Assembly (NCBI RefSeq): GCF_019801965.1
Contig: NZ_JAHVIA010000005.1
Location: forward strand, 124,001 to 188,000
DNA from: Salipiger bermudensis
Lineage (GTDB): Bacteria > Pseudomonadota > Alphaproteobacteria > Rhodobacterales > Rhodobacteraceae
Direction of reading: 5' to 3'
DNA: 64,000 nt
Made by a program: the position numbers and the translations under genes. Below the pieces are notes generated by a model. That model searched no databases and was not told the DNA's origin. It worked only from the letters and a program-made list of their open reading frames with translations. Shown here in pieces: positions 43,489 through 61,342 of the stretch. The number at the start of each line of letters is the position of its first letter. Position 1 is the stretch's first letter.

Positions 43489-45165
43489 TCACCCGAAGAG
43501 CAGCTTCGCCTCCTCCGCCGTATACCGCCCAAGCCGCACGTCCTCTTCCACCAACGCCCGGTCCCGCATCGCGGGATCTCCGTAGCCGCCGCCACCCGGC
43601 GTCTTGACCCGCACCCGGTCTCCCGCGACCAGCGAGATGTCCTGCGCCTTCGACAGGTGCTCCGGCGTGAAGCTCTCGCCGCCGCGCGTCACCGCCACCT
43701 CGTTCACCGCGCCATCACCGCCGCCGAGCGCCCCCTGCGGGCCGAAGCGGCCGTGATCCATGACGAAGCTCGCCCGTGCCTGGCCCTTCAGGATCTCGAC
43801 CTCGTAGTCGAGCCCGAAGCCGCCGCGTTGCGCCCCCGCCCCGCCCGAGCCCTCGCGCAGGGCGTAGCGGTGGTAGAGCACCGGGAATTGCTGCTCCATG
43901 ATCTCGACCGGAGGCGCCTTCGAGATGCCGATGGTCGAGCAGCCGTTGGAGATGCCGTCGCCCCCCGCGTAGCCGCCGTAGCCGCCGCCCGAGATCTGGT
44001 ACATGACGTAGCTCTGGCCGGTTTCCGGCACCTCGCCGCCGAGCGCGAAATTGCCCGAAGAGCCCGCAGGTGCCGCGCTGACCTTGCCCGGCAGCGCCTC
44101 GACCAGCGCCGCGAACACCGCCTCGGCGATACGCTGGCTGACCTCTGCCGCGCAGCCCGAAACGGGGCGCGGGTATTGCGCGTCGAGGAAGGTGCCCTCC
44201 GGGCGTTTGACGGTGAGCGGCTCGAAGGCGCCGGCGCTGATCGGCACGTCGGGAAAGATGTGCCGCATGGCGAGATAGACCGAGCTCAGCGTGGTGGCGA
44301 TGACCGAGTTCATCGGCCCCTGGCAGGGCGGGCTGGAGCCGGCGAAATCGAAGGTCAGGCCTTCGCCGTCGGCGGTCACCGCGAGCTTGATCTCGAGCGG
44401 CTCGTTCACCACGCCGTCGCTGTCGATATAGGCGGTGGAGCGATAGGTGCCCGGCGGGATCTGGGCGATCTGCGCCCGCATCTGCTCGGCGGCGCGGCTG
44501 CGCAGCTCGCCGATGGCCTCGCGCACGGTGTCGTCGCCGTAGCGGTCGAGCAGCCGGGTGAGCCGCGCCTCGCCGACGTAGAGCGCCGCGGCCTGCGCCT
44601 TGACGTCGCCGATGCGCTGGTCGGCGACGCGGATGTTGGAGCAGATGATGGCGTAGATCTCAGGGTCGAGTTCGCCGTTCTTGAACAGGCGCACGGGCGG
44701 CAGCCGCAGCCCCTCCTGCTCGACCGCCGTGGCTGAGGCCGAGAACCCGCCGGGCACCGCGCCGCCGGTATCGGGCCAGTGGCCGGTATTGGAGAGCCAG
44801 CAGAAGATCTCGCCGTTGCGCCAGACCGGCATGGCGAAGCGCACGTCCATCAGGTGGGTGCCACCGAGATAGGGATCGTTCACGATGTAGATGTCGCCGG
44901 GCTTGGGCGCCACGACCTTGCCCTCCGCGATCATCCTGATCAGCGTCGCGGTGGAATACTGCATCACGCCCACGAAGACCGGCAGCCCCTGCGAGCCTTG
45001 CGCGATGAGGCTGCCATCCTCGGCGGAATAGATACCGTCGGAGCGATCGTTGGCCTCGGCGATGACCGGCGAGAAGGCGGCGCGGGAGAAGGAGAGATCC
45101 ATCTCGTCACAGACCTGCTGCAGCCCGGACTGGATGACGGTGAGGGTGATGGGATCGAGCGTCAT
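43489..45165 (-). CDS. Hydantoinase/oxoprolinase B-type subunit (HyuB)
   Basis: A 558-residue subunit of an ATP-dependent amide/lactam hydrolase. Family segments are DLSFSRAAFSPVIAEANDRSDG, GDIYIVNDPYLGGTHLMDV, FDFAGSSPPCQGPMNSV and the C-terminal GGGGYGDPAMRD. HyuB partners HyuA to open hydantoin, 5-oxoproline, acetone-carboxylase-like or other lactam rings with ATP. It is the last gene of the minus-strand operon; a 235-bp gap with two dispersed repeats separates it from hyuA. CGGAGG is a strong ribosome site. The exact substrate cannot be read from sequence; the neighbours point to an N-heterocycle breakdown product. Confidence 0.9.
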   Translation of the reverse strand: MTLDPITLTVIQSGLQQVCDEMDLSFSRAAFSPVIAEANDRSDGIYSAEDGSLIAQGSQGLPVFVGVMQYSTATLIRMIAEGKVVAPKPGDIYIVNDPYLGGTHLMDVRFAMPVWRNGEIFCWLSNTGHWPDTGGAVPGGFSASATAVEQEGLRLPPVRLFKNGELDPEIYAIICSNIRVADQRIGDVKAQAAALYVGEARLTRLLDRYGDDTVREAIGELRSRAAEQMRAQIAQIPPGTYRSTAYIDSDGVVNEPLEIKLAVTADGEGLTFDFAGSSPPCQGPMNSVIATTLSSVYLAMRHIFPDVPISAGAFEPLTVKRPEGTFLDAQYPRPVSGCAAEVSQRIAEAVFAALVEALPGKVSAAPAGSSGNFALGGEVPETGQSYVMYQISGGGYGGYAGGDGISNGCSTIGISKAPPVEIMEQQFPVLYHRYALREGSGGAGAQRGGFGLDYEVEILKGQARASFVMDHGRFGPQGALGGGDGAVNEVAVTRGGESFTPEHLSKAQDISLVAGDRVRVKTPGGGGYGDPAMRDRALVEEDVRLGRYTAEEAKLLFG

Positions 45166-45200
45166 GTCAGACCTCCGAAGACAGCAAGGGCGGAGAGGGC

Positions 45201-45238
45201 GGATGCCTCCGGCGGGAGTATTTTTGACGAAGAGAAGA
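45201..45238 (-). repeat. Dispersed intergenic repeat, copy 3 (inverted orientation)
   Basis: GCCTCCGGCGGGAGTATTTT followed by TGACGAAGAGAAGA; its reverse complement matches the TTCTTTACGTC-AAATACTCC core of the other copies. It faces copy 4 with a short spacer, inside the hyuA-hyuB gap. Confidence 0.7.
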
Positions 45239-45255
45239 CAGGGGCGCCGCTCCCG

Positions 45256-45290
45256 GCTTCTTTACGTTGCAAATACTCCACGGAGGGTGG
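45256..45290 (+). repeat. Dispersed intergenic repeat, copy 4
   Basis: GCTTCTTTACGTTGCAAATA followed by CTCCACGGAGGGTGG. It forms an inverted pair with copy 3, so the hyuA-hyuB mRNA can fold a large hairpin between the two genes. Confidence 0.7.
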
Positions 45291-45400
45291 ATGGGCGTCC
45301 CGGAAAGCGTCCGGGGGATAGTTTCGCCCAGACGCGGGCGGAGCCCAGGGTGCGGGGTGTGCCCCCCCCACTCCGGCGCCGGAGCGCGTGATGCCGCACG

Positions 45401-47461
45401 TCATGCGCGCGGCCCCACGGTCACGATGAGATTGCCGTCGGCATCCTGCGTGGCCACATCGCCGGGCTCGAGCACCAGGGTGCAGTCCATCTGCTCGACG
45501 ATGGCGGGACCGGAGAGCGTTGCGTCCGCCGGCAGGTGATCGCGCCAGTAGATCGGGGTGTCGATCCAGGCGTCGAAGAAGACCGGGCGGGTGCCGGTGC
45601 GAGCCTCCTCCAGCGTGGCCTTGCGGCCCGCCGGGTCGATCAGCGCCGAGAGGTCGATCTCGGGGCGGCGGCCGATGACGGAGGTGTTGACGTTGACCAG
45701 CGCTGGGCGGATTTCCGGCAGCTTGACCTGGAAGCGCTTGAAATAGGCCTCCTCGAACAGCGCCTGCAATTCTTCGCGCGTGGGCGTCGCGGAGGGCAGC
45801 GGCACGCGCAGCAGGTGGGTCTGGCCGATGAAGCGCATCTCCACCGAGAAGGAGATCTTCTCCTCCGCGATCTCCACCCGCTCGCGGCCGATGGCGGCGC
45901 GGCCCTCCTCGACCTGGCGGTCGAAGAGCGCGTGGACCTCGTCCATGTCGCAGGCATCCAAGGGCTGGTTCACCGTGGCGACGTAATCGTGGCGCAGGTC
46001 GGCCACCACGCAGCCCAGCGCGTTGGTGATGCCGGGCCGCGCCGGCACCAGCACCCGCGGTACGCCGAGCTCGCGAGCGATGGCACAGGCGTGCAGCGGC
46101 CCGGCCCCGCCGAAGGCGAAGAGGGCGAAATCACGCGGATCCTCGCCGAGCGAGATCGACACCATGCGCACCGCGTCGGCCATCTTGGCCGTGGCGATGC
46201 GCAGCACCGCCGCTGCCGACTCGGTGGCGTCCAGCCCCAGCGCGTCGCCGAGGCGCGACTGGAAGGCGGCGCGGATGGTCTCGAGCGAGACATCGCCGGA
46301 GATCGTGTTGAGCTTGCCCGGGTCCATCCGGCCCAGCGCCATGTTGGCATCCGAGATGGTGGGCTCGAGGCCCCCCTTGCCATAGCAGATCGGCCCCGGC
46401 ACCGAGCCGGCGCTCTCGGGGCCCACCTGCAGCAGCCCCGCCGCGTCGACCCGCGCGATCGAGCCGCCGCCCGCTCCCACGGTGCGCACGTCGACCATCG
46501 GCACGTGGATCGGCATGGCATACTCGATCTCGATCTCGTGCGAGACCGCCGGATCGGCGCCGCGGATCATCGCCACATCCGTCGAGGTGCCGCCCATGTC
46601 ATAGGTCAGAAGGTCGGGGATGCCGGCGCGGCGCCCGGTATAGGCGGCGGCCATGACGCCGGAGGCCGGGCCCGACATCACCGTCTTGGCGGCCTCCTCG
46701 GCGACCACCCGGGCCGAGACCATGCCGCCATTGCCGTTCATCACCAGCAGATCGCGATCGTAGCCGCGCTCCGACAGCCGGTCGGCCAGCCGTTCGACAT
46801 AGCGCCGCAGCAGCGGCTGCACCGAGGCGTTGACCGCCGCGGTCACGCCGCGCTCGAACTCGCGGCTCTCCGAGATCAGCGCGTGGCCCAGCGTGATGTT
46901 GCCATTGGGCCAGACCTCGCGGGCGATCTCGCCGGCGCGGATCTCGTGGGCCGGGTTGGCATAGGCGTGCAGGAAATGGATCACCAGCGCCTCGCAGCCC
47001 TTCTCGAGAAGCTCTTGAAGCGCGGCGCGCAGAGCGCCTTCGTCGAGGGGGGCGTATTCCGAGCCGTCCGCCAGCATGCGCTCGGGGATCTCGAGGCGCA
47101 GGTCGCGCGGGATGATCGGGCGGAACTGGCCGGTCATGCCGTAGGCATGCGGGCGGGTGCGGCGGCCGAGCTCGAGCACGTCTCGGAAGCCCAGCGTGGT
47201 GACGAGCCCGGTCTTGCAGAGCTGACGCTCGAGCACTGCGTTGGTGGTGGTGGTGGTGCCGTGCACGATGAGATCGAGCGCCGCGGCATCGACCTCCGCC
47301 GCATCGAGCGCCGCCAGCACCCCCTTCGACTGGTTGTCGAGCGTGGTCGGCACCTTGGCGAGCTTCACGGCTTTCGCCTTGCTGTCGTAAAACACCAGGT
47401 CGGTGAAGGTGCCGCCCACGTCGATCCCGGCGAAGCTGCCGGTGAGGGTCTTGTCGGTCAT
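45401..47461 (-). CDS. Hydantoinase/oxoprolinase A-type subunit (HyuA), ATP-binding
   Basis: A 686-residue protein with the N-terminal phosphate motif GIDVGGTFTDLVFYD, the second ATP-site segment DMGGTSTDVAMI and the segments GAGGGSIARVD and FAFGGAGPLHACAIA, all of the ASKHA-fold HyuA/5-oxoprolinase family. It phosphorylates the lactam and, with HyuB, hydrolyses it. The ATG at 47461 has CAGGAAAGG upstream; an alternative GTG at 47512 overlaps the stop of the preceding gene by 4 bp and would add 17 residues, so translational coupling is possible. It lies between the molybdenum hydroxylase and hyuB in one operon. Confidence 0.9.
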   Translation of the reverse strand: MTDKTLTGSFAGIDVGGTFTDLVFYDSKAKAVKLAKVPTTLDNQSKGVLAALDAAEVDAAALDLIVHGTTTTTNAVLERQLCKTGLVTTLGFRDVLELGRRTRPHAYGMTGQFRPIIPRDLRLEIPERMLADGSEYAPLDEGALRAALQELLEKGCEALVIHFLHAYANPAHEIRAGEIAREVWPNGNITLGHALISESREFERGVTAAVNASVQPLLRRYVERLADRLSERGYDRDLLVMNGNGGMVSARVVAEEAAKTVMSGPASGVMAAAYTGRRAGIPDLLTYDMGGTSTDVAMIRGADPAVSHEIEIEYAMPIHVPMVDVRTVGAGGGSIARVDAAGLLQVGPESAGSVPGPICYGKGGLEPTISDANMALGRMDPGKLNTISGDVSLETIRAAFQSRLGDALGLDATESAAAVLRIATAKMADAVRMVSISLGEDPRDFALFAFGGAGPLHACAIARELGVPRVLVPARPGITNALGCVVADLRHDYVATVNQPLDACDMDEVHALFDRQVEEGRAAIGRERVEIAEEKISFSVEMRFIGQTHLLRVPLPSATPTREELQALFEEAYFKRFQVKLPEIRPALVNVNTSVIGRRPEIDLSALIDPAGRKATLEEARTGTRPVFFDAWIDTPIYWRDHLPADATLSGPAIVEQMDCTLVLEPGDVATQDADGNLIVTVGPRA

Positions 47462-47508: not shown

Positions 47509-50226
47509 TCACGCGCCCGTCCCGGCGGCGAGGATCGCCGCGCGCACCGTGTCGGGCGTGGCGGGGAGGTGGTGGACGCGGGCGCCGGTGGCATGCGCGA
47601 TGGCGTTGAGCACCGCCGGCGCGGTGGGGATCAGGCAGTGCTCGCCCAGCCCCTTGGCGCCGTAGGGGCCGTGGGCGTCGCCGCTCTCGATGATCAGGCT
47701 CTCGATCGGGGGCACGTCGCCGATGGTGGGGATGAGGTAATCGTGCAGGTTCTCGGTGCGGCCGGGCAGGAACTCCTCCATCAGCGCAAGCCCGATGCCC
47801 TGCGCCACGCCGCCCTCGATCTGGCCCTCGACCAGCAGCGGGTTGATGGCGCGGCCGACATCATGGGCGGCGACGAAGCGCAGCAGCTGGACGGTGCCGA
47901 GCGCGGTGTCGACCTCAAGCTCGCAGAGCTGGGCGGCCGTTCCGAAGACGGCGTAGGGATCGCCCTGCCCGTTCTCATCCAGCGGCGAGGTCGGCGGGTC
48001 GTAGCTCTCGACCGCCTCGATGGCGTAGCCCACGTCGGGCTCGAGCTCGACACGCACCTGCGTCCCTGCATCCGAGAGCGTGATGCCGCCTTCCTCGAGC
48101 GTGATGGTCGCCGCCTCGGAGACGTTGCCGAGCCGCAGGATCTGCGCTCGCAGCGCCGCGCCGCAGAGCCGGGCCGCATTGCCCGAGATATAGGTCTGGC
48201 GGCTGGCCGAGGTCTTGCCGGCATCGGGGGTGATGTCGGTATCGGGGCCGAGGATGGTGATCTGACCGACCGGCACGCCGAGCGCCTCGGCGAAGATCTG
48301 GGTGATGACGGTGTTGGCGCCCTGCCCGATATCCACCGCGCCCTGATGCAGGCACAGCTCTCCCTCGGGCGTGATGCCGGCGCGGATCGTCGAGGGGTTC
48401 GACATTGAGGTGTTGCCGCAGCCATACCAGCCCGCCGCGATGCCGACGCCGCGTTTCTTCGTCTGGCTCGTGGCGTTGAAGGCCTCGGCCTCGGCCAGCG
48501 CGGTGTCCCAGTGGGGCTTCAGCGCGTCGAAGCAGGCGTCGATGCCCATGCCGGTCTCGAAGACCTGCCCGGTCACGGTCGGATCGCCATTGCAGAGGCA
48601 ATTCAGGCGCCGGAAGGCGAGACGGTCCATGCCGAGCTTCTCGGCCAGCAGGTCGTAGAGCTGCTCCTGCGCCACCGCCGATTGCGGCACGCCGAAGCCG
48701 CGGAAGGCGCCGGCGGGGGCGGTGTTGGTGTGGATGCCGGCGCTTCTCGCCTCGTAATTCGGGGTCTTGTAGGGGCCGGAGGCGTGGATCGGCACGCGGT
48801 TGGCCACCGTGGGCCCCCAGCTGGCATAGGCGCCGGTGTTGAAAGTGCCGTCGAAGCGCACCGCGGTGACGCGCCCCTCGGCATCGGTGCCGATCTCCAT
48901 GCGCACCTCGGAGGGGTGCCGTTTGGTCGAGGTCGTGATGGATTCGGCGCGGGTATAGGCGATGCGGACCGGGCGCTTGAGAACCCACGCCGCCAGCGCC
49001 ACGTAGGGCTGCGCGGTGAGGTCGAGCTTGGAGCCGAAGCCGCCGCCGGTCGCGGTGGGCAGGATGCGCACCTGTTCCGGCGCCAGCCCCATGATGCCGG
49101 CGATGCCGTCGCGGTTCATGAACGGCGCCTGCGTGCAGCACTGGATCTCGATGCGGTCGCCGACGCGCCGGGCCGAGGCGGCCTCGGGCTCGATATAGCC
49201 ATGCTCGATGAAGCCGGTGGAGAACGCCCCCGAGACCACATGCGCGGCCTTGCTCATCGCCTCGGCCGCATCGCCGCGCGCCACGTAGCCGCGGCACATG
49301 ACGTTGTCGGCGCGGTCCTCATGCAGCAGCGCCGCCTTGTCGGCGCCCTCCGGGGTCAGAACAGACGCCAGCTCTTCCCACGCGACGGGAAACGGCTCCA
49401 TCCCCGCCAGCGCCTCGGGCAGGCCCACCACGGCGGCCACCGCCTCGCCCTTGAAGCGGGTTTCACCTTCGGCAAAGACCGGCTGGTCCTCGAATCCGGG
49501 GATCACGCCGAAACGGTTCTCGCCGGGGATATCGGCGGCGGTGAGGACCAGGGCGAGGCCGTTCTCCTCCCGGAAGGTCTCGAGATCGCCAAAGCGGAAC
49601 CCCGCGCGGTGGAACGGCGAGCGGATCACCTGCACGGTGAGCGCATCCGCCGGCGCCACGTCATCGCCGAAGCGCTCGGTGCCGTTGACCTTCGGCCAGC
49701 CGTCGAGCCTTGCGATGGGCGCACCGACGCCGCCTTCCGCAAGCGGCTGGGCGGTGGAGGCGTCGAGCACCGCGGCGATGATCTTGCGATAGCCGGTGCA
49801 GCGGCAGAGCACGCCGCCCAGCGCGTCCGACACGCTCTCTTCGGTGAGCTGTTCGCCCGAGCGCAGCAGCGCCACCGCCGAGACCATCATGCCCGGCGTG
49901 CAGATGCCGCATTGCGCCGCCTGATGGCGCTGGAAGCTCTGCGCCAGCCGCTCGGCATCGCGGTCGCCTGAGACGAGCCCCGCCTGCGTCTCGATCTCGC
50001 AGCCCTGCGCCTGCCCGGCGGCGATCATGCAGGCGCAGACCGGCGCGCCGTCGAGCAGCACGGTGCAGGCGCCGCAATCGCCGGCATTGCAGCCGACCTT
50101 GACGTCGCGCGCGCCTGCCACCTCGCGCAGCACCTCGGAAAGGCGCGCGGTCGCGTCGGCGGGCACAGTGATCTCGGAGCCGTTGAGGGTGAAGCCGATA
50201 TGGCCCTGCGGCGCATCAAGCGACAT
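47509..50226 (-). CDS. Xanthine-dehydrogenase-family hydroxylase, fused [2Fe-2S] and molybdopterin subunit
   Basis: A 905-residue fusion. Residues 1-150 form the small ferredoxin-like part: plant-type cluster ligands Cys46, Cys51, Cys54 and Cys64 or Cys66, and the second cluster with Cys106-Cys109 and Cys141-Cys143 (QCGICTPGMM, GVLCRCTGYRK). The rest is the molybdopterin part with GGGFGSKLDL, APAGAFRGFG and the catalytic Glu in GAKGLGEHC. Such enzymes hydroxylate N-heterocycles or aldehydes with water as oxygen source. The fused order resembles Desulfovibrio aldehyde oxidoreductase, but a separate FAD subunit is encoded just upstream, as in nicotinate and purine dehydrogenases. AAGGAGGTGA is a near-perfect ribosome site. 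Confidence 0.92.
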   Translation of the reverse strand: MSLDAPQGHIGFTLNGSEITVPADATARLSEVLREVAGARDVKVGCNAGDCGACTVLLDGAPVCACMIAAGQAQGCEIETQAGLVSGDRDAERLAQSFQRHQAAQCGICTPGMMVSAVALLRSGEQLTEESVSDALGGVLCRCTGYRKIIAAVLDASTAQPLAEGGVGAPIARLDGWPKVNGTERFGDDVAPADALTVQVIRSPFHRAGFRFGDLETFREENGLALVLTAADIPGENRFGVIPGFEDQPVFAEGETRFKGEAVAAVVGLPEALAGMEPFPVAWEELASVLTPEGADKAALLHEDRADNVMCRGYVARGDAAEAMSKAAHVVSGAFSTGFIEHGYIEPEAASARRVGDRIEIQCCTQAPFMNRDGIAGIMGLAPEQVRILPTATGGGFGSKLDLTAQPYVALAAWVLKRPVRIAYTRAESITTSTKRHPSEVRMEIGTDAEGRVTAVRFDGTFNTGAYASWGPTVANRVPIHASGPYKTPNYEARSAGIHTNTAPAGAFRGFGVPQSAVAQEQLYDLLAEKLGMDRLAFRRLNCLCNGDPTVTGQVFETGMGIDACFDALKPHWDTALAEAEAFNATSQTKKRGVGIAAGWYGCGNTSMSNPSTIRAGITPEGELCLHQGAVDIGQGANTVITQIFAEALGVPVGQITILGPDTDITPDAGKTSASRQTYISGNAARLCGAALRAQILRLGNVSEAATITLEEGGITLSDAGTQVRVELEPDVGYAIEAVESYDPPTSPLDENGQGDPYAVFGTAAQLCELEVDTALGTVQLLRFVAAHDVGRAINPLLVEGQIEGGVAQGIGLALMEEFLPGRTENLHDYLIPTIGDVPPIESLIIESGDAHGPYGAKGLGEHCLIPTAPAVLNAIAHATGARVHHLPATPDTVRAAILAAGTGA

Positions 50227-51064
50227 GGGTCACCTCCTTCTTGGGCGTGGCCGCCTCGGCGATGGCGCGGGCGACCAGCGTGGCCACCGCCTCGCGGCGG
50301 TAGGTTGCGCGGGCGCGCACATCGTCGATGGGGCTGAGTTCGGGGAAATCATAGCTGAGTACGTTCTGCTCGGCGGCCTCGAGGGTCGCCCCCGCAAGCG
50401 CGGCCTCCAGCGCGGTGAGCCGCCGCGCTACCGGGGAGCAGGCCCCGACGGCGACGCGGGCACTCTTGATCCGGTCGCCCTCCATCTCGACCACGGCGGC
50501 GACCATGGCGATGGAGATCACCAGATAGCGCCGCGCGCCGAGCTTGAGAAAGGCACCACGGCCCGGAGCCTCGGGGATGAAGAGCGCCGAGAGGATCTCG
50601 CCTTGCTTCAGCGCCGTCGCGCGCGGGCCGGTGATGAACTCGCCCAGAGCCATCCGGCGGGTGCCGCCCTGCCCCGCAAGCTCGACCTGCGCCTCGAGCG
50701 CCAGCAGCGCCGGCACGCCATCCGCCGCCGGAGAGGCGTTGCAGAGATTGCCCGCCACGGTACCGGCATTCTGGATCTGCACCGAGCCGACCTCGCGCGC
50801 CGCGGCCTTCAGCCCGTCGAAGAGCGGCGGCAGCTCGGCCTTCACGACCTGCGTCCAGGTCGTTGCGCCGCCGATGCGCCAGCCGCCCTCGACCGCGGTG
50901 ATGCCGCGCAGCCCGGCGATTCGGGTCAGGTCGACCATCTCCGGCGGCGGCGCGCCATCCCGCAGCGCCGGGTAGAGATCGGTGCCGCCACCTAGGGCGA
51001 CCGCCCGTCCGCCCTGCAGAAGCTCGAGCGCGGCGTCGAGCGATTCGGGGCGATGCAGTGGCAT
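50216..51064 (-). CDS. Xanthine-dehydrogenase-family FAD-binding subunit
   Basis: A 282-residue CoxM/XdhA-type subunit that passes electrons from the iron-sulfur clusters to NAD or another acceptor. FAD motifs are AVALGGGTDLYP and NAGTVAGNLCNASPAADGVP, and the C-terminal CO_deh_flav_C part has ARVAVGACSPVARRLTALE. First gene of the minus-strand operon; its end overlaps the fused FeS/Mo subunit by 11 bp. AAGGAG precedes the start. A -35/-10 pair and an operator-like motif lie upstream (51128-51182). Confidence 0.92.
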   Translation of the reverse strand: MPLHRPESLDAALELLQGGRAVALGGGTDLYPALRDGAPPPEMVDLTRIAGLRGITAVEGGWRIGGATTWTQVVKAELPPLFDGLKAAAREVGSVQIQNAGTVAGNLCNASPAADGVPALLALEAQVELAGQGGTRRMALGEFITGPRATALKQGEILSALFIPEAPGRGAFLKLGARRYLVISIAMVAAVVEMEGDRIKSARVAVGACSPVARRLTALEAALAGATLEAAEQNVLSYDFPELSPIDDVRARATYRREAVATLVARAIAEAATPKKEVTHVA

Positions 51065-51127
51065 TGGGCTTTCTCCTTGCTGGTCGCTGGGTTGGTCGGT
51101 CTGCGCCGCCTTCTCCGCCGCACTTCA

Positions 51128-51143
51128 TTCGTATGCGAACGAT
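51128..51143. promoter_or_regulatory. Operator-like motif 1 of the catabolic island
   Basis: TTCGTATGCGAACGAT: a TTCGT-N6-ACGA dyad 64 bp before the FAD-subunit gene, just downstream of its predicted transcript start. It shares 13 of 16 positions with motif 2 at 51299-51314. Binding by the MarR regulator at 60890 is inferred. Confidence 0.6.
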
Positions 51144-51152
51144 TTGAGAGCG

Positions 51153-51182
51153 AGCGTAGGGGCGGTTTCGGAAGTCTGTCAA
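51153..51182 (-). promoter_or_regulatory. Predicted promoter of the molybdenum hydroxylase-hyu operon
   Basis: On the minus strand TTGACA (51182-51177) and TACGCT (51158-51153) are separated by 18 bp. The start would be near 51146, so motif 1 overlaps the first transcribed bases, a typical repressor position. Confidence 0.55.
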
Positions 51183-51298
51183 TCGCCATCATCGCGCCGG
51201 TTGCCCGCATCTGGCAGAATGCTGAAAAACGCGACACAGGTCCATCTCGGCCTGCGCTGCCACACCAAGCCGCTTGACAGACCGGCCGGGGCCATGCG

Positions 51299-51314
51299 TT
51301 CGTATACAAACGAA
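51299..51314. promoter_or_regulatory. Operator-like motif 2 of the catabolic island
   Basis: TTCGTATACAAACGAA: a TTCGT-N6-ACGAA dyad 44 bp before the 6-hydroxynicotinate-reductase-like gene. It matches motif 1 (51128-51143) and faces the divergent operon, so both operons may share one repressor. Confidence 0.6.
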
Positions 51315-53726: not shown

Positions 53727-54303
53727 GGTGAAGGTCCGCAAGACGCTGGTCCAGGTCGAAACCATCTTCCACGAGGGCGGCCCCGCCCCCGAGGCGCCGC
53801 AGAAGCGCGCCGCCGCCATCGCGGTGATCGAGAACCCCTATGCCGGCGGCTATGTCGAAGACATCCTGCCCTTCATGAAGGATCTCGAGCCGCTCGGCGC
53901 CGAGATGGCCAAGATGTGCATCGACGCGCTCGGCGGTGACGCGAGCGCGGTGGAAGGCTACGGCAAGGGCGCCATCGTCGGCGTCAACGGCGAGATCGAG
54001 CACGGCGCGCTCTGGCACGTGCCCGGCGGCTACGCCATGCGCGACGCCATCGAGAAGAGCATGGCCATCGTGCCCTCGACCAAGAAGGTCGGCGCGGCAG
54101 GCACCCGGCTCGACGTGCCGGTGACCCACACCAATGCCTCCTACGTCCGCACCCACTATGACGCCGTCGAAGTGGGCGTGCCTGACGCGCCGCGGCCCAA
54201 CGAGATCGCGCTGGTGCTGGTGATGACCACCGCGGGCCGCATCCACGCCCGCATCGGCGGCCTCACCAAGGATCAGGTCAAGGGCGAGGACGGTCTCCGT
54301 TGA
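53719..54303 (+). CDS. DUF1185 (amino acid synthesis) family protein, paralogue 1
   Basis: A 194-residue protein with IAVIENPYAGGYVEDILPFM, VEGYGKGAIVGVNGEIEHG, NASYVRTHYDAVEV and PDAPRPNEIALVL. DUF1185 (PF06684) members have a chorismate-mutase-like fold and no proven reaction, as I recall; the conserved Tyr, Arg and His suggest an enzyme. CAGGAGGAG precedes the ATG. It sits between UPF0280 and a second paralogue with end overlaps, so the two DUF1185 proteins are probably made together and may form a hetero-oligomer. Confidence 0.85.
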   Translation: MPEVKVRKTLVQVETIFHEGGPAPEAPQKRAAAIAVIENPYAGGYVEDILPFMKDLEPLGAEMAKMCIDALGGDASAVEGYGKGAIVGVNGEIEHGALWHVPGGYAMRDAIEKSMAIVPSTKKVGAAGTRLDVPVTHTNASYVRTHYDAVEVGVPDAPRPNEIALVLVMTTAGRIHARIGGLTKDQVKGEDGLR

Positions 54304-54878
54304 AGCTGCGCAAGATCATCACGCTGGTCGAGGAGACCCGCTCCGAGATGGGCCAGGCGGTCGCGCCGCCTGCCCGCCGGGCGCTCGCCGCCGCGGTGAT
54401 CGAGAACCCCTTCGCTGGGGCCTATGCCGAGGATCTCTCCGAGCTGATCGAGACCGGCGCGGAGCTGGGCACACTCCTGGGCGAAGAGGCGCTCTCCGCG
54501 CTCGGCTGCGCCGCGGGCGAGATCGAGGGCTATGGCAAGGCCGCGCTGGTGGGCGAGCTCGGTGAGCTCGAACACGCCGCCGCGCTGCTGCACCCGAAGC
54601 TCGGCGCGCCTTTGCGCGCGGTGATCGGCGGCGGCAAGGCGCTGGTGCCGTCCTCCAAGGCCATCGGCCGCGCCGGCGAGATCCTCGACGTGCCGCTCGG
54701 CCACAAGGATGCCGCCTATGTGCGCAGCCATTTCGACGCCATGCGCCTGCGGCTGCCCGACGCCCCGCGCCCGCGCGAGATCGTGGTGGCGGTGGCGCTG
54801 CAACAGACCGGACGACCGCTGCCGCGCGTCGGCGGGTTGAGACACGACGAGATCGAGGGCGGCGACGGGCTGCGCTGA
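54300..54878 (+). CDS. DUF1185 (amino acid synthesis) family protein, paralogue 2
   Basis: A 192-residue protein related to the preceding gene product: AAAVIENPFAGAYAEDLSEL, IEGYGKAALVGELGELEHAA, AAYVRSHFDAMRL and PDAPRPREIVVAV align without gaps in the main blocks, while the first 25 residues and the central loop differ. The start is TTG at 54300, overlapping the previous stop (TTGA). Retention of two diverged copies side by side suggests different subunits or successive steps of one pathway. The Rieske oxygenase gene follows after 53 bp. Confidence 0.85.
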   Translation: MKLRKIITLVEETRSEMGQAVAPPARRALAAAVIENPFAGAYAEDLSELIETGAELGTLLGEEALSALGCAAGEIEGYGKAALVGELGELEHAAALLHPKLGAPLRAVIGGGKALVPSSKAIGRAGEILDVPLGHKDAAYVRSHFDAMRLRLPDAPRPREIVVAVALQQTGRPLPRVGGLRHDEIEGGDGLR

Positions 54879-54931: not shown

Positions 54932-56002
54932 ATGACGAATTTCGTGAAGAACGCCTGGTATGTCGCTGGCTGGTCGACGGAAATCGACGACGCGCTTCGC
55001 CGCTTCACGATCCTCGGCGAGCACGTGGTGATGTTTCGCAAATCCGACGGCACCGTCGCCGCGCTCGAGGATCGCTGCCCGCACCGCCTGCTGCCGCTCT
55101 CCAAGGGCAAGCGCATCGGTGACACGGTGCAATGCGGCTACCACGGCCTGACCTTCGACTGCTCCGGCGCCTGCGTGCGCGTCCCCGGCCAGACCAACCT
55201 GCCGAAATCGGCCTATGTCGAGGCCTACCCCATCGCCGAGAAGCATGGCATCGTCTGGATCTGGATGGGCGACGCCGAGAAGGCCGACGAGAGCAAGGTC
55301 TTCGACATGCCCGAGTTCTCCGACCCGGCCTGGGCCGCCCATCACGGCGACGCGCTGCACCTCAAGTCGAACTATCTTAACGTGGCCGAAAACCTCGTCG
55401 ACCCGGCGCATGTGAGCTTCGTGCACCCGACCACGCTGGGCAATGCGGCCTCCGAGAACGTGCCGGTGCATGTCCAGACCGAGGGCGAGGCCATCGTCGC
55501 CTGGCGCTGGATCCGCGATGCCGAGCCGATCGGCTTCTTCAAGGCCTTCGGCGGCTTCACCGGCAATGTCGACCGCTGGCATTACTACTATCTCTACACG
55601 CCGTGCACCGCCGTCATCGATTTCGGCTCCATCGAGACCGAGAAGAAATGCGCCGAGGAAGACCGTGGCCAGGGCGTGCGCATTTTCGCACTGCACTTCA
55701 TGACCCCGGTCACCGAGACCTACACGATCGACCGCTGGATGCACCTGCGCAACACCGCCACCGACGATCCTGAGGCGGCCGAGCGCATGGACGCGATGTT
55801 CCGCAAGGCCTTCGACGAGGACAAGGAAATCCTCGAGGCGGTGCAGGAAGAGGAGATGCGCCCGCAGAAGCGCCGCCCGATCCGCATCGCCATCGACAAG
55901 GGCCCCCTTGTCTATCGCAAGCGCATCAACGAACTTCTGGAACTGGAACGCACGGAAGACCTTGCCGCCGATCCCTCACCGGCGTTTGTTTACCACGATT
56001 AA
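54932..56002 (+). CDS. Rieske non-heme iron oxygenase, oxygenase component (VanA-like)
   Basis: A 356-residue oxygenase. The Rieske [2Fe-2S] ligands are Cys49-x-His51 and Cys68-x2-His71 (DRCPHRLLPL, VQCGYHGLTF), and the mononuclear iron ligands His160 and His165 lie in NLVDPAHVSFVH. It begins FVKNAWYVAGWSTEI as in vanillate O-demethylase and related demethylases, so N- or O-demethylation or ring hydroxylation are the likely reactions. No reductase or ferredoxin partner gene lies in the window, so electrons must come from elsewhere. GGGAGAACG precedes the start. It is followed by the transporter genes on the same strand. Confidence 0.92.
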   Translation: MTNFVKNAWYVAGWSTEIDDALRRFTILGEHVVMFRKSDGTVAALEDRCPHRLLPLSKGKRIGDTVQCGYHGLTFDCSGACVRVPGQTNLPKSAYVEAYPIAEKHGIVWIWMGDAEKADESKVFDMPEFSDPAWAAHHGDALHLKSNYLNVAENLVDPAHVSFVHPTTLGNAASENVPVHVQTEGEAIVAWRWIRDAEPIGFFKAFGGFTGNVDRWHYYYLYTPCTAVIDFGSIETEKKCAEEDRGQGVRIFALHFMTPVTETYTIDRWMHLRNTATDDPEAAERMDAMFRKAFDEDKEILEAVQEEEMRPQKRRPIRIAIDKGPLVYRKRINELLELERTEDLAADPSPAFVYHD

Positions 56003-56069: not shown

Positions 56070-57278
56070 ATGAACTTTCTGAGACGCACCGTGCTCGCCA
56101 CGGCCGCCGCCATGGCCCTGGCGCCCGCCGCGGGCTTCGCGCAAGAGACCATCAAGGTCGGCGAGATCAACCACTACAAGCGCATGGCCGCCTTCGCCGA
56201 GCCCTACAAGATGGGCATCGAGCTGGCGCTGTCGGAGATCAACGAAGACGGCGGCGTGCTGGGCAAGGATCTCGAGTTCATCTTCCGCGATGACCAGGGC
56301 GACCCGGCCGAGGCGGTGAAGATCGCCGAGGAGCTGATGACCCGCGACGGCGCGGTGATGCTGACCGGCACGATCCTCAGCCACGTGGGCCTGGCGCTGT
56401 CGAGCTTCGCCGCCGAGAAGGGCTACCTCTACCTCGCCGCCGAACCGCTGGCCGACAGCCTGGTGTGGAAGTCGGGCAACCCCTACACCTTCCGCCTGCG
56501 CGCCTCGACCTGGGTCCAGGCCGCGATGCTGGCCGAGGAGGCCGCCAAGACCGACGCGATCAAATATGCCACCATCGCGCCCAACTACGCCTACGGGCAG
56601 GACGCGGTCGAGGCCTTCAAGGAAAACCTCAAGCGCCTGAAGCCCGAGGTCGAGTTCGTCGCCGAGCAATGGCCGGCGCTGTTCAAGATCGACGCCGGCG
56701 CCGAGGTGCAGGCCATCGAGCGCGCCAAGCCCGACGCGATCTATAACGTCACCTTCGGCACCGACCTTGCCAAGCTGGTGCGGGAAGGCGGCGACCGTGG
56801 CCTGTTCGACGGCCGCAACGTTTACGGCCTGCTGACCGGCGAGCCGGAATATCTCGAGCCGCTCGGCGACGAGGCTCCCGAGGGCTGGTTCGTCACCGGC
56901 TTCCCCTGGTACGCGCTCGAAGATGGCACCCCGGGCAAGACCTTCGTCGACGCCTATACCGAGGCCACCGGCGAGACCCCGAAGATCGGCAGCCTCGTGG
57001 GCTACATGACCGCGCAGTCGATCGCCGCCGCCATCGAGGCCGCCGGCGCCACCGACACCGAGGCGCTGGTCGCAGCCTTCGAGGGGCTCACCATCGAAGA
57101 CACCCCCATCGGCGCGCTGACCTACCGCGAGATCGACAACCAGTCGACGCTCGGCGCCTGGGTCGGCACCACGGCGCTCGAGGATGGCAAGGGCGTGATG
57201 GTGGACTGGGAATACAAGGACCCGGCCCCCTACATGCCCTCGGACGAAGAGATCACCGCCATGCGTCCGGCCGAGTGA
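56070..57278 (+). CDS. ABC transporter substrate-binding protein, branched-chain-amino-acid/aromatic type
   Basis: A 402-residue periplasmic receptor of the Liv (PBP1, peripla_BP_6) family. A signal peptide (MNFLRRTVLATAAAMALAPA, then AGFAQ) is followed by IKVGEINHYKRMAAFAEPYKMG, INEDGGVLGKDLEFIFRDDQ and YATIAPNYAYGQDAVEAF. Members of this family take up amino acids, urea, short amides or aromatic acids; here the catabolic neighbours suggest an N-heterocyclic or aromatic carboxylate. AGGAGAG precedes the ATG at 10 nt. The permease and ATPase genes follow, separated by a dispersed repeat. Confidence 0.92.
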   Translation: MNFLRRTVLATAAAMALAPAAGFAQETIKVGEINHYKRMAAFAEPYKMGIELALSEINEDGGVLGKDLEFIFRDDQGDPAEAVKIAEELMTRDGAVMLTGTILSHVGLALSSFAAEKGYLYLAAEPLADSLVWKSGNPYTFRLRASTWVQAAMLAEEAAKTDAIKYATIAPNYAYGQDAVEAFKENLKRLKPEVEFVAEQWPALFKIDAGAEVQAIERAKPDAIYNVTFGTDLAKLVREGGDRGLFDGRNVYGLLTGEPEYLEPLGDEAPEGWFVTGFPWYALEDGTPGKTFVDAYTEATGETPKIGSLVGYMTAQSIAAAIEAAGATDTEALVAAFEGLTIEDTPIGALTYREIDNQSTLGAWVGTTALEDGKGVMVDWEYKDPAPYMPSDEEITAMRPAE

Positions 57279-57482: not shown

Positions 57483-59339
57483 ATGGCCTTCTTCCTCGCC
57501 CAGTTCCTGACGGGTCTCGCCAACGCGGCGGCCCTGTTCCTCGTCGCCTCCGGGCTGTCGCTGATCTTCGGCGTCACCCGGATCGTCAACTTCGCGCATG
57601 GCTCGTTCTACATGCTCGGCGCCTTCATCGGCATCTACCTGATGGAGATCCTGCCCGGCGCGGTGGGCTTCTGGGGCGCCATCCTGCTCACCGGCATCGC
57701 CGTCGGGCTGATCGGCGCCATCGTCGAGATGGTGGTGCTGCGGCCGATCTACAGGGCGCCGGAGCTGTTCCAGCTCGTCGCCACCTTCGGCGTGATCCTC
57801 GTGATCCAGGACCTGGCGCTGATGATCTGGGGCGCCGAAGACCGGCTCGGACCGCGCGCCCCCGGCCTGCGCGGCGTCTGGCGGATCTTCGGCGAGCCGG
57901 TGCCGAAATACGACATCATCCTGATCGCCATCACCCCCTTCATCCTCTTCGCGCTCTGGTATCTCATCACCAAGACCCGGCTCGGCGTGCTGGTCCGCGC
58001 CGCCACGCAGGACCGCGAGATGGTCGGCGCGCTCGGCGTCAACCAGGCCTGGCTCTTCACCGGCGTCTTCGCGCTCGGCTCGGCGCTGGCCGGCTGGGGC
58101 GGCGCGCTGCAGCTGCCCAAGGGCGGCGCCGACCTCCTGATGGATTTCAACATCATCGGCGCGGTCTTCGTGGTGGTGGTGATCGGCGGCATGGGCTCGC
58201 TGCCCGGCGCCTTCATTGCCTCGGTGCTGATCTCGGTGCTCAACGTCTTCGGCGTCACCTACCTGCCGCAATCGACTCTGGTGCTGATGTTCGTGGTCAT
58301 GGCCGTGGTGCTGATCATCCGCCCCTACGGCCTTCTGGGCCGCGAAGAAGTCGCCGGCGAGCACGGACAGGTCGGCGCACCGGAGACGCCCATCCGCCCC
58401 TATGGCCCCGTGGGTCAGGCGCTGGTCGCGGCGCTGCTGCTGGGCCTCGCGCTGCTGCCGCTCTTCGTCGACCAGTTCATGCTGATCCTGACCATCGACA
58501 TGGTGATCTTCGCGCTCTTCGCCGCCTCGCTGCATTTCATCCTCGGCTCCGGCGGGCTGGTGAGCTTTGGCCACGCCGCCTTCTTCGGCGGCGGTGCCTA
58601 TGCCGCGGCGCTGCTGGTGTTCCATACCGACACCCCGATGGAGCTGGCGTTCCTCTTCGCGCCGCTCGCGGCGGGCCTCTTGGCGCTCGGCATCGGCTGG
58701 TTCTGCATCCGCCTCACCGGGGTCTATTTCGCCATGCTGACGCTGGCCTTCAGCCAGCTGGTCTGGAGCCTCGCCTTCCAGTGGCGCGCCGTGACCCGCG
58801 GCGATGACGGCCTCGTCAATATCTGGCCCTCCGACTGGCTCTCGGGCACCGAGACCTATTACTACTTCGCCCTGATCCTCGGCGTCGGCGGCATTCTGTT
58901 CCTGCGCCATGTCATCCATTCCCCCTTCGGCTACGCCCTGCGCGCCGGACGCGACAGCGCACGGCAAGCCGAGGCCACCGGCATCGACGTCAAGCGCGTG
59001 CAATTCGCGGCCTTCGCACTCGCCGGCGCCATGGCCGGTCTCGCGGGCGGCATCTTCGTCTTCGCCAAGGGCTCGGTCTTCCCCACCGAGCTCGAGATCG
59101 CCAAGAGTTTCGACGCGCTGATCGTGGTTTTCCTCGGCGGCGTGAAGACGCTTGCCGGCGGCGTTGTCGGCGCGGGCTTCATGACCGTGGTCGAAGACTG
59201 GCTCACCCGCCTCGAATACTGGCGCCTGCTGCTGGGTCTGGTGATCATCGCCGTGGTGATCGTGATGCCGGAAGGCATCGTCGGCACCCTGCGCACCCTC
59301 TGGCGCCGCATCCGCCACACCGATGAGGAGACGGTCTGA
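57483..59339 (+). CDS. Fused LivH-LivM ABC permease
   Basis: A 618-residue membrane protein joining both permeases of a Liv-type importer. Residues 1-285 are LivH-like (ASGLSLIFGVTRIVNFAHGS, LGVLVRAATQDREMVGALGV); a linker of about 40 residues leads to the LivM-like half (LHFILGSGGLVSFGHAAFFG, FCIRLTGVYFAMLTLAFSQL, GYALRAGRDSARQAEATGID). Most relatives encode the halves separately, although fusions occur in this transporter family. Its stop codon overlaps the LivG start by 1 bp (TGATG). The ribosome site is GGACC-like and weak. With the other genes it forms a complete importer. Confidence 0.92.
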   Translation: MAFFLAQFLTGLANAAALFLVASGLSLIFGVTRIVNFAHGSFYMLGAFIGIYLMEILPGAVGFWGAILLTGIAVGLIGAIVEMVVLRPIYRAPELFQLVATFGVILVIQDLALMIWGAEDRLGPRAPGLRGVWRIFGEPVPKYDIILIAITPFILFALWYLITKTRLGVLVRAATQDREMVGALGVNQAWLFTGVFALGSALAGWGGALQLPKGGADLLMDFNIIGAVFVVVVIGGMGSLPGAFIASVLISVLNVFGVTYLPQSTLVLMFVVMAVVLIIRPYGLLGREEVAGEHGQVGAPETPIRPYGPVGQALVAALLLGLALLPLFVDQFMLILTIDMVIFALFAASLHFILGSGGLVSFGHAAFFGGGAYAAALLVFHTDTPMELAFLFAPLAAGLLALGIGWFCIRLTGVYFAMLTLAFSQLVWSLAFQWRAVTRGDDGLVNIWPSDWLSGTETYYYFALILGVGGILFLRHVIHSPFGYALRAGRDSARQAEATGIDVKRVQFAAFALAGAMAGLAGGIFVFAKGSVFPTELEIAKSFDALIVVFLGGVKTLAGGVVGAGFMTVVEDWLTRLEYWRLLLGLVIIAVVIVMPEGIVGTLRTLWRRIRHTDEETV

Positions 59340-60109
59340 TGTCCGAGATCCTGCGAGTCGAAAACCTGAAGAAAAGCTATGACGGCTTTCTCGCGGTCAA
59401 CGGCGTGTCCTTCAGCGTCGCCAAGGGCGAGCTGAAGGCGCTGATCGGCCCCAACGGCGCCGGCAAGTCGACCTGCTTCAACATGCTGATGGGGCAGCTC
59501 AAGCCGACCGAGGGCGACGTGTTCTTCGAGGGCGAGAAGATCACCGGCCACAAACCGCGCGACATCTGGCGCCGCGGCGTCGGCCGGACCTTCCAGATCA
59601 CCGGCACCTACCAGTCGATGACGGTGATCGAGAACGTGCAGATGGCGCTGATGAGCCACCATCGCAAGATCTTCTCGATCGGGCCGCGGGCGTGGAAGCT
59701 CTACCGCGAGGAGGCCTTCGAGTTCCTCGAGACCGTGTCGATGCAGGATCAGGCCGACCGGCCCTGCTCGATCCTCGCCTATGGCGATCTCAAGCGGCTC
59801 GAGCTGGCCATCGCGCTCTGCCACCGCCCGCGCCTTCTCTTGATGGACGAGCCCACCGCCGGCATGGCCCCCACCGCCCGCGTCGAGCTGATGCAGCTGG
59901 TGGCCGATATCGTCCGCGATCAGGGCGTCTCGGTGCTGTTCACCGAGCACGACATGGACGTGGTCTTTGCCCATTCCCACCACATCATGGTGCTGAACCG
60001 CGGCGAGCTGATCGCCGATGGCGACGCCACCGCGGTGCGCAACAACCCGCAGGTCCAGGAGGTCTATCTGGGCGGCGGGACGCTCTTCAAGGAGGAGTCC
60101 CATGCTTAG
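59339..60109 (+). CDS. ABC transporter ATP-binding protein (LivG-like)
   Basis: A 256-residue ATPase. Walker A is GPNGAGKST, the Q-loop region is VGRTFQITGTYQSM, Walker B is LLLMDEPTAGMAP and the switch His is in FTEHDMDVVF. The usual LSGG-type signature reads LAYGDLKRLE, typical of the LivG branch, which lacks the canonical LSGGQ. It energises the fused permease together with the LivF-like ATPase, whose start codon lies 8 bp inside this gene. Confidence 0.94.
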   Translation: MSEILRVENLKKSYDGFLAVNGVSFSVAKGELKALIGPNGAGKSTCFNMLMGQLKPTEGDVFFEGEKITGHKPRDIWRRGVGRTFQITGTYQSMTVIENVQMALMSHHRKIFSIGPRAWKLYREEAFEFLETVSMQDQADRPCSILAYGDLKRLELAIALCHRPRLLLMDEPTAGMAPTARVELMQLVADIVRDQGVSVLFTEHDMDVVFAHSHHIMVLNRGELIADGDATAVRNNPQVQEVYLGGGTLFKEESHA

Positions 60110-60803
60110 CGTCGAGCGCATCCACAGCTATTACGGCAAGGCCCATATCCTCAACGACCTCAGCTTTGAGGTCCGGCGCGGCGAGGTGGTGGCGCTTCTG
60201 GGCCGCAACGGCGCCGGCAAGTCCACTACGATGAAATCGGTGATGCAGCTGGTGCGCCCGAAGCAGGGACATGTTGTGTTCCAGGGCGAGAACCTCGTCG
60301 GCGCCCCCGCCTTCCGGGTCGCCAAGGACGGCATCGGCTACGTGCCCGAGGATCGGCGCATCTTCACCGACCTGACGGTGCTCGAGAACCTCGAGGTCGG
60401 GCGCCAGCCCAGGCGCCACGACGCGCCGCACTGGACCATCGAACAGCTCTTCGAGATCTTCCCCAACCTCGAAGAGCGCCGCGCCAACCGCGGCAAGCAC
60501 ATGTCGGGCGGAGAGCAGCAGATGCTGACCATCGCGCGCACGCTGATGGGCAATCCCTCGCTGCTCTTGCTCGATGAGCCCTCCGAGGGCATCGCCCCGG
60601 TGATCGTCGAGCAGATGGCGGCGACGATCCTCAAGCTCAAGGCCGAGGGGCTGACGGTGATGATCTCTGAGCAGAACCTGCACTTCGCCCGCGCGGTGGC
60701 CGACCGGGCCATCATCATCGAGGGCGGCGAGAAGAAGTTTGACGGCAGTTTCAAGGAGTTGGAAGCCCATCCCGAGATCCGCGACGCCTATCTTTCCGTC
60801 TGA
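60102..60803 (+). CDS. ABC transporter ATP-binding protein (LivF-like)
   Basis: A 233-residue ATPase. Walker A is GRNGAGKST, the LivF-specific Q-loop segment is IGYVPEDRRIFTDLTVLENL, the signature MSGGEQQML, Walker B LLLLDEPSEGIAP and the switch region ISEQNLHFA with Gln in place of the usual His, as is normal for LivF. The ATG at 60102 has AAGGAGGAG upstream and overlaps livG by 8 bp. It closes the transport operon; the MarR regulator follows after 86 bp. Confidence 0.94.
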   Translation: MLSVERIHSYYGKAHILNDLSFEVRRGEVVALLGRNGAGKSTTMKSVMQLVRPKQGHVVFQGENLVGAPAFRVAKDGIGYVPEDRRIFTDLTVLENLEVGRQPRRHDAPHWTIEQLFEIFPNLEERRANRGKHMSGGEQQMLTIARTLMGNPSLLLLDEPSEGIAPVIVEQMAATILKLKAEGLTVMISEQNLHFARAVADRAIIIEGGEKKFDGSFKELEAHPEIRDAYLSV

Positions 60804-60815
60804 GCCACAAGCGCC

Positions 60816-60821
60816 TATACT
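60816..60821 (+). promoter_or_regulatory. Candidate -10 element of the MarR regulator gene
   Basis: TATACT in the gap after livF would give the regulator its own promoter; the matching -35 (TTTCCG at 60793-60798, 17-bp spacer) is poor. Confidence 0.35.
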
Positions 60822-60889
60822 GCACTGCAGCATTGGCAGAAGGGCGCGTGTTTCGTAAGGTTGGGGCGCCCGACAGGAGGTCCGAGTTC

Positions 60890-61342
60890 TTGCAAGACAC
60901 GCCCAAAGCCCGCACCAGCGCCGAACATGGCTACGTGCTCGACGAACAGATCGGCTTCCTGCTCCGCAAGGCCTATCAGCGCAACTCCACCATCTTCGCC
61001 GAGAGCGTGCCCGGCAAGCTGACGCCGACGCAGTTCTCGGTGATGCACCGGTTGGCCGAGGACGGTCCGACCTCGCAGAACCTGCTGGGGCGCTCGGTGG
61101 CGATGGACGGCGCGACGACCAAGGGCGTGGTCGACCGGCTGATCGCGCGTGGCCTGCTCCAGACCGCGCCCGACCCGGTGGACCGCCGCCGCCATCTCGT
61201 CTCGCTGACCGCCGATGGCGTGGCGCTGATCGACGAGGCGGTGGATGCCGCCATCGCGGTGAGCGCCGAGACGCTGGCGCCGCTGCGCGAGCGCGAGAAG
61301 GAGACGCTGCTGCGGCTGCTGAAGAAGCTCGGCGGGGAGTGA
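60890..61342 (+). CDS. MarR-family transcriptional regulator
   Basis: A 150-residue winged-helix repressor: YVLDEQIGFLLRKAYQRNST (dimer helix), LTPTQFSVMHRLAEDGPTSQ, GRSVAMDGATTKGVVDRLIA (recognition helix) and the wing PDPVDRRRHLVSLT. It starts with TTG at 60890 behind AGGAGG; longer starts (GTG 60848, TTG 60833) are less likely. MarR proteins in catabolic clusters usually release DNA on binding an aromatic acid or its CoA ester. It is the natural candidate to bind the two TTCGT-N6-ACGA motifs at 51128 and 51299. Confidence 0.9.
   Translation: MQDTPKARTSAEHGYVLDEQIGFLLRKAYQRNSTIFAESVPGKLTPTQFSVMHRLAEDGPTSQNLLGRSVAMDGATTKGVVDRLIARGLLQTAPDPVDRRRHLVSLTADGVALIDEAVDAAIAVSAETLAPLREREKETLLRLLKKLGGE

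Follow-up and report, generated by a model that had tools for sequence, protein, structure and literature searches.

A predicted pyridine-carboxylate catabolic cluster of Salipiger bermudensis in which HyuAB most likely takes the place of an enamidase

We analysed a stretch of 64,000 nucleotides from the alphaproteobacterium Salipiger bermudensis (NCBI RefSeq assembly GCF_019801965.1, contig NZ_JAHVIA010000005.1, positions 124,001 to 188,000), hereafter the window, in which fourteen genes at positions 43489 to 61342 form two divergent operons that include a 6-hydroxynicotinate-reductase-like gene (hnr). On balance, we favour the reading that they constitute a MarR-controlled cluster for the catabolism of a pyridine carboxylate, in which the ring would be hydroxylated, reduced and opened in turn, with HyuAB opening the lactam and nicotinate or trigonelline as the most likely substrate. 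An earlier note on this DNA had seen a catabolic island for an unidentified N-heterocycle or lactam; the cluster is a variant of a type that has been tied in print to nicotinate (PMC3511419). It looks like a variant of the known oxidise-reduce-open route whose single clear departure is the ring opener: its relatives divide between two openers that are not related to each other, of which the predicted one here is driven by ATP.

Distribution of the two ring openers and the shared operator

Some related clusters have an enamidase-like neighbour, a homologue of the Eubacterium barkeri enamidase (2vun, E 6e-107). No orthologue of it was found in the whole genome of the window at E 1e-60, and HyuAB is present instead. 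Among 138 distinct hnr loci, 42 carried the enamidase gene, 32 carried hyuAB and none carried both (9.7 expected), while 64 had neither in the visible stretch. These loci were drawn from 145 (80 named loci, 5 on plasmids, 59 from further genomes and the window) after removal of 5 duplicates and of 2 in which no hnr frame was recovered. The 80 named loci are the best 80 of at least 591, and the 59 were picked by hand from the 201 hnr genomes besides that of the window (67 in the class set, 134 in the family set), including every family-set match of 74% identity or more. In L154 (genome G028) hnr is in two pieces, one of which stands as a long branch in the tree.

Whole-genome searches revealed the same exclusiveness. 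The hnr gene was found in 68 of 385 genomes of the class and in 135 of 394 genomes of the family; none of the 4 other genomes from the window's own family in the class draw carried it. Enamidase matches at E 1e-60 occurred in 35 of the 385 class genomes, 30 of them at 68-86% identity, and 29 of these 30 also carry hnr, as against 68 of 385 overall. All 39 hnr genomes without an enamidase orthologue, which span 20 family codes, have an orthologue of the window HyuB (66-100% identity), whereas it was absent from all nine enamidase genomes examined, the first in handle order of the 29 (six with no match at E 1e-100, three at 41-44% identity). By genome, the difference between 39/39 and 0/9 gives a p of 6e-10. 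In 20 of the 39 genomes no more than 30 kb separates HyuB from hnr; in the other 19 it is farther away or on another contig, in some of them through contig breaks, and because of these 19, neighbourhood alone fails to explain the association. Two families (f34 and f104) include both opener types, and on the hnr tree the enamidase and HyuAB rows need 4 changes, a count that, like the others on trees, omits rows of unknown type.

The common control region proposed in the earlier note was borne out, since the 293-base gap between the operons holds two copies of one site, TTCGTATNCNAACGA (at 51128 and 51299), where 0.02 are expected by shuffling. Across the 138 loci (2.66 Mb), each of the 26 sites that match TTCGTATNCAAACGAA with no more than one mismatch fell within 350 bp of the start of a pathway gene, a zone that makes up at most a third of all bases, and 10 of the 26 belong to loci outside the window's own clade. 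The genes behind these near-exact sites are hnr, fad (FAD subunit of a molybdenum hydroxylase), a ferredoxin-NADP reductase (FNR) gene, the enamidase gene, an aldehyde:ferredoxin-oxidoreductase-like (AOR-like) gene, marR and hyuA. At two mismatches 39 of 48 sites lay near pathway starts (a few palindrome-like sites being counted twice) and at three 101 of 118; the two-mismatch sites additionally mark nicA, a ferredoxin gene, the Rieske oxygenase gene, the binding-protein gene of a second importer and an acyl-CoA dehydrogenase gene. The genome of the window has three exact sites, and its sites with up to two mismatches number 23, close to the 17 of the reversed control, so that near-exact sites alone are informative genome-wide. 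Because both openers follow the same operator, this pattern places enamidase and HyuAB in the same kind of regulon; the MarR protein is presumed to bind the operator-like sites.

The third exact copy (G000:C5:63939-63953, on the same contig but outside the window) lies where another operon begins (L206:4184-8958), one that encodes an FAD/NAD(P) oxidoreductase, a 174-amino-acid protein without a Pfam match, a CMD protein, an octopine-dehydrogenase-family protein and a solute-binding protein. This operon may belong to the same regulon or answer to a paralogous MarR protein.

Given the exclusive distribution relative to the enamidase and the shared operator, HyuAB is most likely the protein that opens the reduced ring, with ATP. 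Such a step would be chemically reasonable because a reduced pyridone is a six-membered lactam. The CapAB/OplAB family is reported to open six- and seven-membered lactams (PMC8453981, PMC11033972), and OplAB to hydrolyse delta-valerolactam (PMC11033972). HyuA is similar to N-methylhydantoinase (7hk5, E 2.7e-136) and CapA (6yra_A, E 7.3e-116), and the window proteins retain both the ATP motifs (DVGGTFTD and DMGGTSTD, the phosphate motifs of HyuA) and four metal ligands, with D40, H104, D107 and H129 of HyuB aligned with Asp41, His99, Asp102 and His124 of CapB (6yra); mutation of such residues is reported to abolish or greatly reduce caprolactamase activity (PMC8453981). HyuAB differs from CapAB and OplAB in being clustered with a ring-reducing pathway and in scoring below the equivalog cut-offs of 1000 in the NCBIfam caprolactamase models (302.8 bits with the beta model, HyuB's best, and 493.1). 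Among the matches listed in one literature search, no report joining HyuAB to 6-hydroxynicotinate was recognised, which is weak evidence of absence.

The proposed route, its substrate and rival explanations

In the route that we propose, substrate uptake would fall to the Liv-type importer, removal of a methyl group most likely to the Rieske oxygenase in those clusters that have one, and the FAD/FeS/Mo hydroxylase would introduce a 6-oxo group. The last two roles are read from protein families; hydroxylase genes of the right family for the predicted C6 hydroxylation are present. The hnr protein would reduce the ring to a partly saturated lactam with electrons from a ferredoxin and a ferredoxin reductase presumably encoded elsewhere in this genome, HyuAB would use ATP to open the lactam, a step that other members leave to the enamidase, and the product would pass via glutarate and glutaryl-CoA. 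Import, Mo hydroxylation, ring reduction and ATP-dependent opening of a lactam, in the order given by the earlier note, agree with the relatives, with the operator pattern and with the mutual exclusion of HyuAB and enamidase. The note's description of the island as self-contained had to be given up: neither the electron supply to hnr nor the steps after ring opening are encoded in the cluster, and no ferredoxin or ferredoxin reductase gene is among the fourteen.

Beside some relatives lie AOR-like, FNR, ferredoxin, acyl-CoA dehydrogenase and succinate-glutarate-CoA-transferase-like genes, a set that suits the needs of the glutarate route; all of their proteins except the ferredoxin FdxA score below NCBIfam cut-offs. 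The AOR-like gene adjoins the cluster in six loci (L039, L044, L048, L105, L123 and L124; 65 bits, cut-off 868), and its product could oxidise a semialdehyde, returning ferredoxin electrons. The CoA-transferase gene adjoins the enamidase gene (the L191 copy scores 537 bits with the succinate-glutarate CoA-transferase model, cut-off 750), and the acyl-CoA dehydrogenase, labelled glutaryl-CoA-dehydrogenase-like and below every NCBIfam cut-off, was found in 4 of the 80 named loci. In L039 the AOR-like gene occupies the usual place of fad and mo (the gene of the fused FeS/Mo subunit), with an operator site ahead of it.

The nicotinate cluster of Azorhizobium caulinodans (AZC_2804-AZC_2790) and Bradyrhizobiaceae strain SG-6C, whose genes were identified by BLAST with the E. 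barkeri set, is reported to hydroxylate the ring, reduce it to a lactam and hydrolyse it, and to hold genes for the initial three steps, for an ABC transporter and for a pair of conserved proteins of unknown function (PMC3511419). The same paper cites an Azorhizobium route via 1,4,5,6-tetrahydro-6-oxonicotinate (THON) and glutarate. The window cluster shares an ABC importer with this reductive type, but it has no enamidase and possesses HyuAB, a Rieske oxygenase and a fused FeS/Mo subunit. With the nicotinate fermentation of E. barkeri it would share the oxidise-reduce-open order, and enamidase orthologues lie beside related clusters; however, E. barkeri is an anaerobe, the enamidase orthologue was not found in the genome of the window, and the later steps were not seen in the cluster. 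The earlier note had regarded anaerobic-style reduction alongside oxygenase chemistry as an unusual mix; 6-hydroxynicotinate reduction is reported for the aerobe Azorhizobium (PMC3511419).

The substrate is probably nicotinate or, given the predicted Rieske oxygenase, a methylated relative such as trigonelline, and we rank these ahead of homarine, without certainty. In two loci of the window's own clade, L035 and L121, fad and mo are replaced by NicAB-like hydroxylase genes, which comprise a Mo part and a cytochrome c part; best blastp hits place such genes also in the enamidase-type loci L097, L122 and L130. The LivK-type binding protein common to both types argues for one kind of substrate.

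Several observations weigh against this reading. The 39 HyuB-bearing genomes are kin by descent and not independent events, since there are only 4 changes of opener on the hnr tree, and HyuB was sought in 9 of the 29 enamidase genomes and in hnr-bearing genomes only. Distant enamidase relatives are present in two of the 39 (G104, 39%; G289, 37%), the HyuB frames of G064 and G226 are partial, and that of G380 is interrupted by one in-frame stop. Openers serving different substrates would likewise yield exclusive distributions. The operator motif was derived from the window and is not clearly enriched genome-wide at two mismatches. The Rieske gene has no reductase partner nearby, and the genome of the window has an N-methylglutamate gene set, as a homarine route would use. 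In addition, the putative identity of hnr derives from the annotations of its relatives, the NicAB-like proteins, a tentative label, reach none of the NCBIfam cut-offs, and the substrate is a prediction.

A different substrate, homarine (N-methylpicolinate) or picolinate, is possible although doubtful. The Mo hydroxylase would then produce a 6-oxo compound, hnr would reduce it and HyuAB would open an N-methyl lactam, after which methylamine (or N-methylglutamate) and 2-oxoadipate would enter the N-methylglutamate and glutaryl-CoA routes. Homarine is reported to be consumed by Ruegeria pomeroyi (PMC12817926), which has an hnr cluster, and Mgd to take part in homarine catabolism, by a 2026 study cited in PMC13390433; in the genome of the window the GmaS gene (TIGR03105, over cut-off) adjoins genes read as MgsABC and Mgd. 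GmaS is also commoner in hnr genomes (26/68) than overall (66/385), and the nearest PDB match of HyuA is an N-methylhydantoinase. Nevertheless, 42 of the 68 hnr genomes were without GmaS at the cut-off used, and GmaS is no commoner in HyuAB genomes (14/39) than in enamidase genomes (12/29), counts on which the N-methylglutamate link was also rejected as a separator of the opener types. The AOR-like neighbours would suit an aldehyde product, which a 3-carboxylate but not a 2-carboxylate should give. A homarine operon of marine Rhodobacterales, homABCDER, was reportedly described in Nature Microbiology in 2026, and the earlier note suggested that the five genes from 51358 to 56002 plus the MarR gene could correspond to its six genes. 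However, the Rieske member of this set is present in just 23 of the 138 related loci, and the R. pomeroyi cluster (G777; mo-hnr-UPF0280-DUF1185-DUF1185-Liv-MarR, a CoA-transferase and an enamidase, plus a fad gene identified in its list of frames) has no Rieske gene within the 19.9 kb that were read.

We consider it unlikely that the enamidase and HyuAB types are separate though related pathways in which each opener serves a ring acid of its own, and not one pathway with interchangeable openers. The mere 4 changes of opener on the hnr tree would agree with such a split, and the 9 HyuAB-type loci that lack the Rieske gene have a single DUF1185 form rather than two. However, orthologous LivK proteins accompany both types, with 4 type changes on the LivK tree (43 rows: 14 enamidase, 20 HyuAB, 9 unknown), as do related Rieske proteins (10 enamidase-type and 11 HyuAB-type of 24), NicAB-like hydroxylases and the same operator. 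It is highly improbable that HyuAB and the Mo enzyme are a separate salvage unit for hydantoin, oxoproline or a lactam that merely adjoins the hnr operon. The two operons are divergent and HyuAB families act on many cyclic amides, but HyuB, sought in hnr-bearing genomes, is present in 39 of 39 without an enamidase orthologue, across 20 family codes and in 19 of them more than 30 kb from hnr or on another contig, and hyuA shares its operator with the hnr pathway genes.

Gene layout and individual proteins

The gene content named in the earlier note was found as open frames without internal stops (Table 1). Pfam and NCBIfam profile scans covered ten of the fourteen proteins, and the family calls held for those scanned except hnr, which matched no model of either collection; the names of the FAD, LivHM, LivG and LivF proteins were taken from an annotated twin, L118. 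The tight overlaps that the earlier note described stood for fad-mo, hnr-UPF0280-DUF1185-DUF1185 and LivHM-LivG-LivF (1 to 11 bases) but not for the looser junctions hyuA-hyuB (235 bases) and livK-livHM (204 bases). A repeat scan for island ends gave short partial matches only, none resembling insertion ends. The GC content is 68.8% in the cluster, 66.6% in the left flank and 69.1% in the right flank.

Table 1. Features of the cluster, in window positions
Feature	Position	Strand	Basis
HyuB, metal subunit of ATP-dependent lactamase (CapB-like)	43489..45165	-	PF02538 E 2.9e-159; 6yra chain B E 2.5e-74
HyuA, ATP-binding subunit (CapA / N-methylhydantoinase-like)	45401..47461 (or GTG start at 47512)	-	PF01968, PF05378, PF19278
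Fused 2Fe-2S and molybdopterin subunit, xanthine-oxidase-family hydroxylase (mo)	47509..50226	-	PF00111, PF01799, PF01315, PF02738, PF20256
FAD subunit of Mo hydroxylase (fad)	50216..51064	-	same-place L118 homologue annotated 'FAD binding domain-containing protein'
Divergent control region, two operator-like sites	51065..51357 (293 bases)	.	sites 51128-51142 and 51299-51313, TTCGTATNCNAACGA
hnr, 6-hydroxynicotinate-reductase-like, N-terminal four-cysteine motif	51358..52866 (GTG start)	+	annotation of plasmid relatives
UPF0280 protein	52863..53726	+	NF003322 328.9 bits, cut-off 290
DUF1185 paralogue 1	53719..54303	+	PF06684 E 2.1e-70
DUF1185 paralogue 2	54300..54878	+	PF06684 E 3.7e-67; 2qtp (R. 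pomeroyi SPO0826) E 1.4e-79
VanA-type Rieske oxygenase, oxygenase part only	54932..56002	+	PF00355, PF19112
Periplasmic substrate-binding protein, Liv type (LivK-type)	56070..57278	+	PF13458 E 1.8e-60
Fused LivH-LivM permease	57483..59339	+	L118 orthologue annotated ABC transporter permease; 20/80 named loci
LivG-type ATPase	59339..60109	+	L118 orthologue annotated ABC transporter ATP-binding protein
LivF-type ATPase	60102..60803	+	L118 orthologue annotated ABC transporter ATP-binding protein
MarR-family regulator	60833..61342	+	PF01047 E 3.4e-10

Among the 26 plasmid relatives of hnr, 17 are annotated as 6-hydroxynicotinate reductase, 3 as hypothetical and 6 are unannotated there. Four cysteines of hnr (C21, C24, C28 and C38) are invariant in alignments of 18 and of 37 sequences, and the structure model has a pLDDT (predicted local distance difference test score) of 74.6. 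The AlphaFold2 model of the UPF0280 protein reaches 93.1. Flavinylation of hnr by UPF0280, considered for a putative likeness of this protein to ApbE, was set aside because the final position of the GSAT stretch in hnr, T in at least 90% of the larger alignment, is occupied by A in several sequences of the smaller one. The Mo subunit carries a GAKGLGE motif, presumably with a role in the active site.

The two DUF1185 paralogues are identical at 87 of 195 aligned columns. The 'amino acid synthesis' label of this family comes from a structural study of BB2672 and SPO0826, in which it was argued from the fold and from branched-chain amino-acid transport neighbours (PMC2954203). The neighbours stated there for SPO0826, the 2qtp protein, are SPO0822-SPO0825, which agrees with the R. 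pomeroyi hnr cluster read here; therefore, a catabolic role seems likelier for DUF1185 than amino acid synthesis. The name of PF06684 looks misleading, its solved member SPO0826 apparently lying within this ring-degradation cluster type. Judged by their frequent presence, both UPF0280 and DUF1185 probably matter to the pathway.

The Rieske protein matches 7qwt and dicamba O-demethylase (E about 1e-43 to 1e-42) and has both the CxH-CxxH and D..H...H motifs. No cognate reductase is encoded among the fourteen genes; an FNR gene is found in the cluster of some relatives. In L063 and L125, Rieske-like frames immediately follow UPF0280, at the expected place of DUF1185; those of L063, two or one after overlap removal, may be one split gene.

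Spread of the cluster type and what it may mean

By blastp, the 80 named loci contained mo (70), UPF0280 (68), fad (65), the two DUF1185 forms (56 and 54), MarR (37), the enamidase-like gene (31), FNR (14), Rieske (12), hyuA (7) and hyuB (6). The nearest relatives of the window cluster retain its gene order. The clearest public twin, L118, on a plasmid of Sagittula stellata E-37 typed as conjugative, has the same fourteen genes in the same order, with an FNR gene located immediately ahead of hnr. Relatives of hnr sit on 26 plasmids, and the cluster was also seen outside Alphaproteobacteria, in Acidobacteria-type metagenome-assembled genomes (L076, L095, L098), on a Comamonadaceae plasmid (L122) and in Granulosicoccus (L065, L073, L086). 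Occurrence on plasmids and beyond Alphaproteobacteria points to horizontal spread. In 13 of the 80 loci a conserved membrane-like protein of about 459 amino acids (L080:266-1642) without an NCBIfam match is encoded near the cluster, and between DUF1185 and a second-type Liv importer L120 encodes a 457-amino-acid protein (L120:14933-16303) with no match in Pfam or NCBIfam.

The window's family is rich in marine bacteria. On a broader proposal we are evenly divided: the HyuAB group would be an undescribed ATP-dependent lactamase for a partly reduced pyridone acid, replacing the enamidase in 39 of the 68 sampled alphaproteobacterial hnr genomes, UPF0280 and DUF1185 would be unrecognised parts of the pathway, and the pathway, present in about one third of the sampled genera (134/393), would serve pyridine betaines of plankton such as trigonelline or homarine. 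On the favoured reading, a previously vague hydantoinase annotation becomes a testable step of one pathway, the UPF0280 and DUF1185 families gain a functional context, and the operator motif is supplied as a marker of the regulon. Should the substrate prove to be a pyridine betaine, common marine bacteria would be linked to a poorly traced part of plankton nitrogen. The findings further suggest that aerobes carry out low-potential ring reduction more often than the few strains studied so far indicate.

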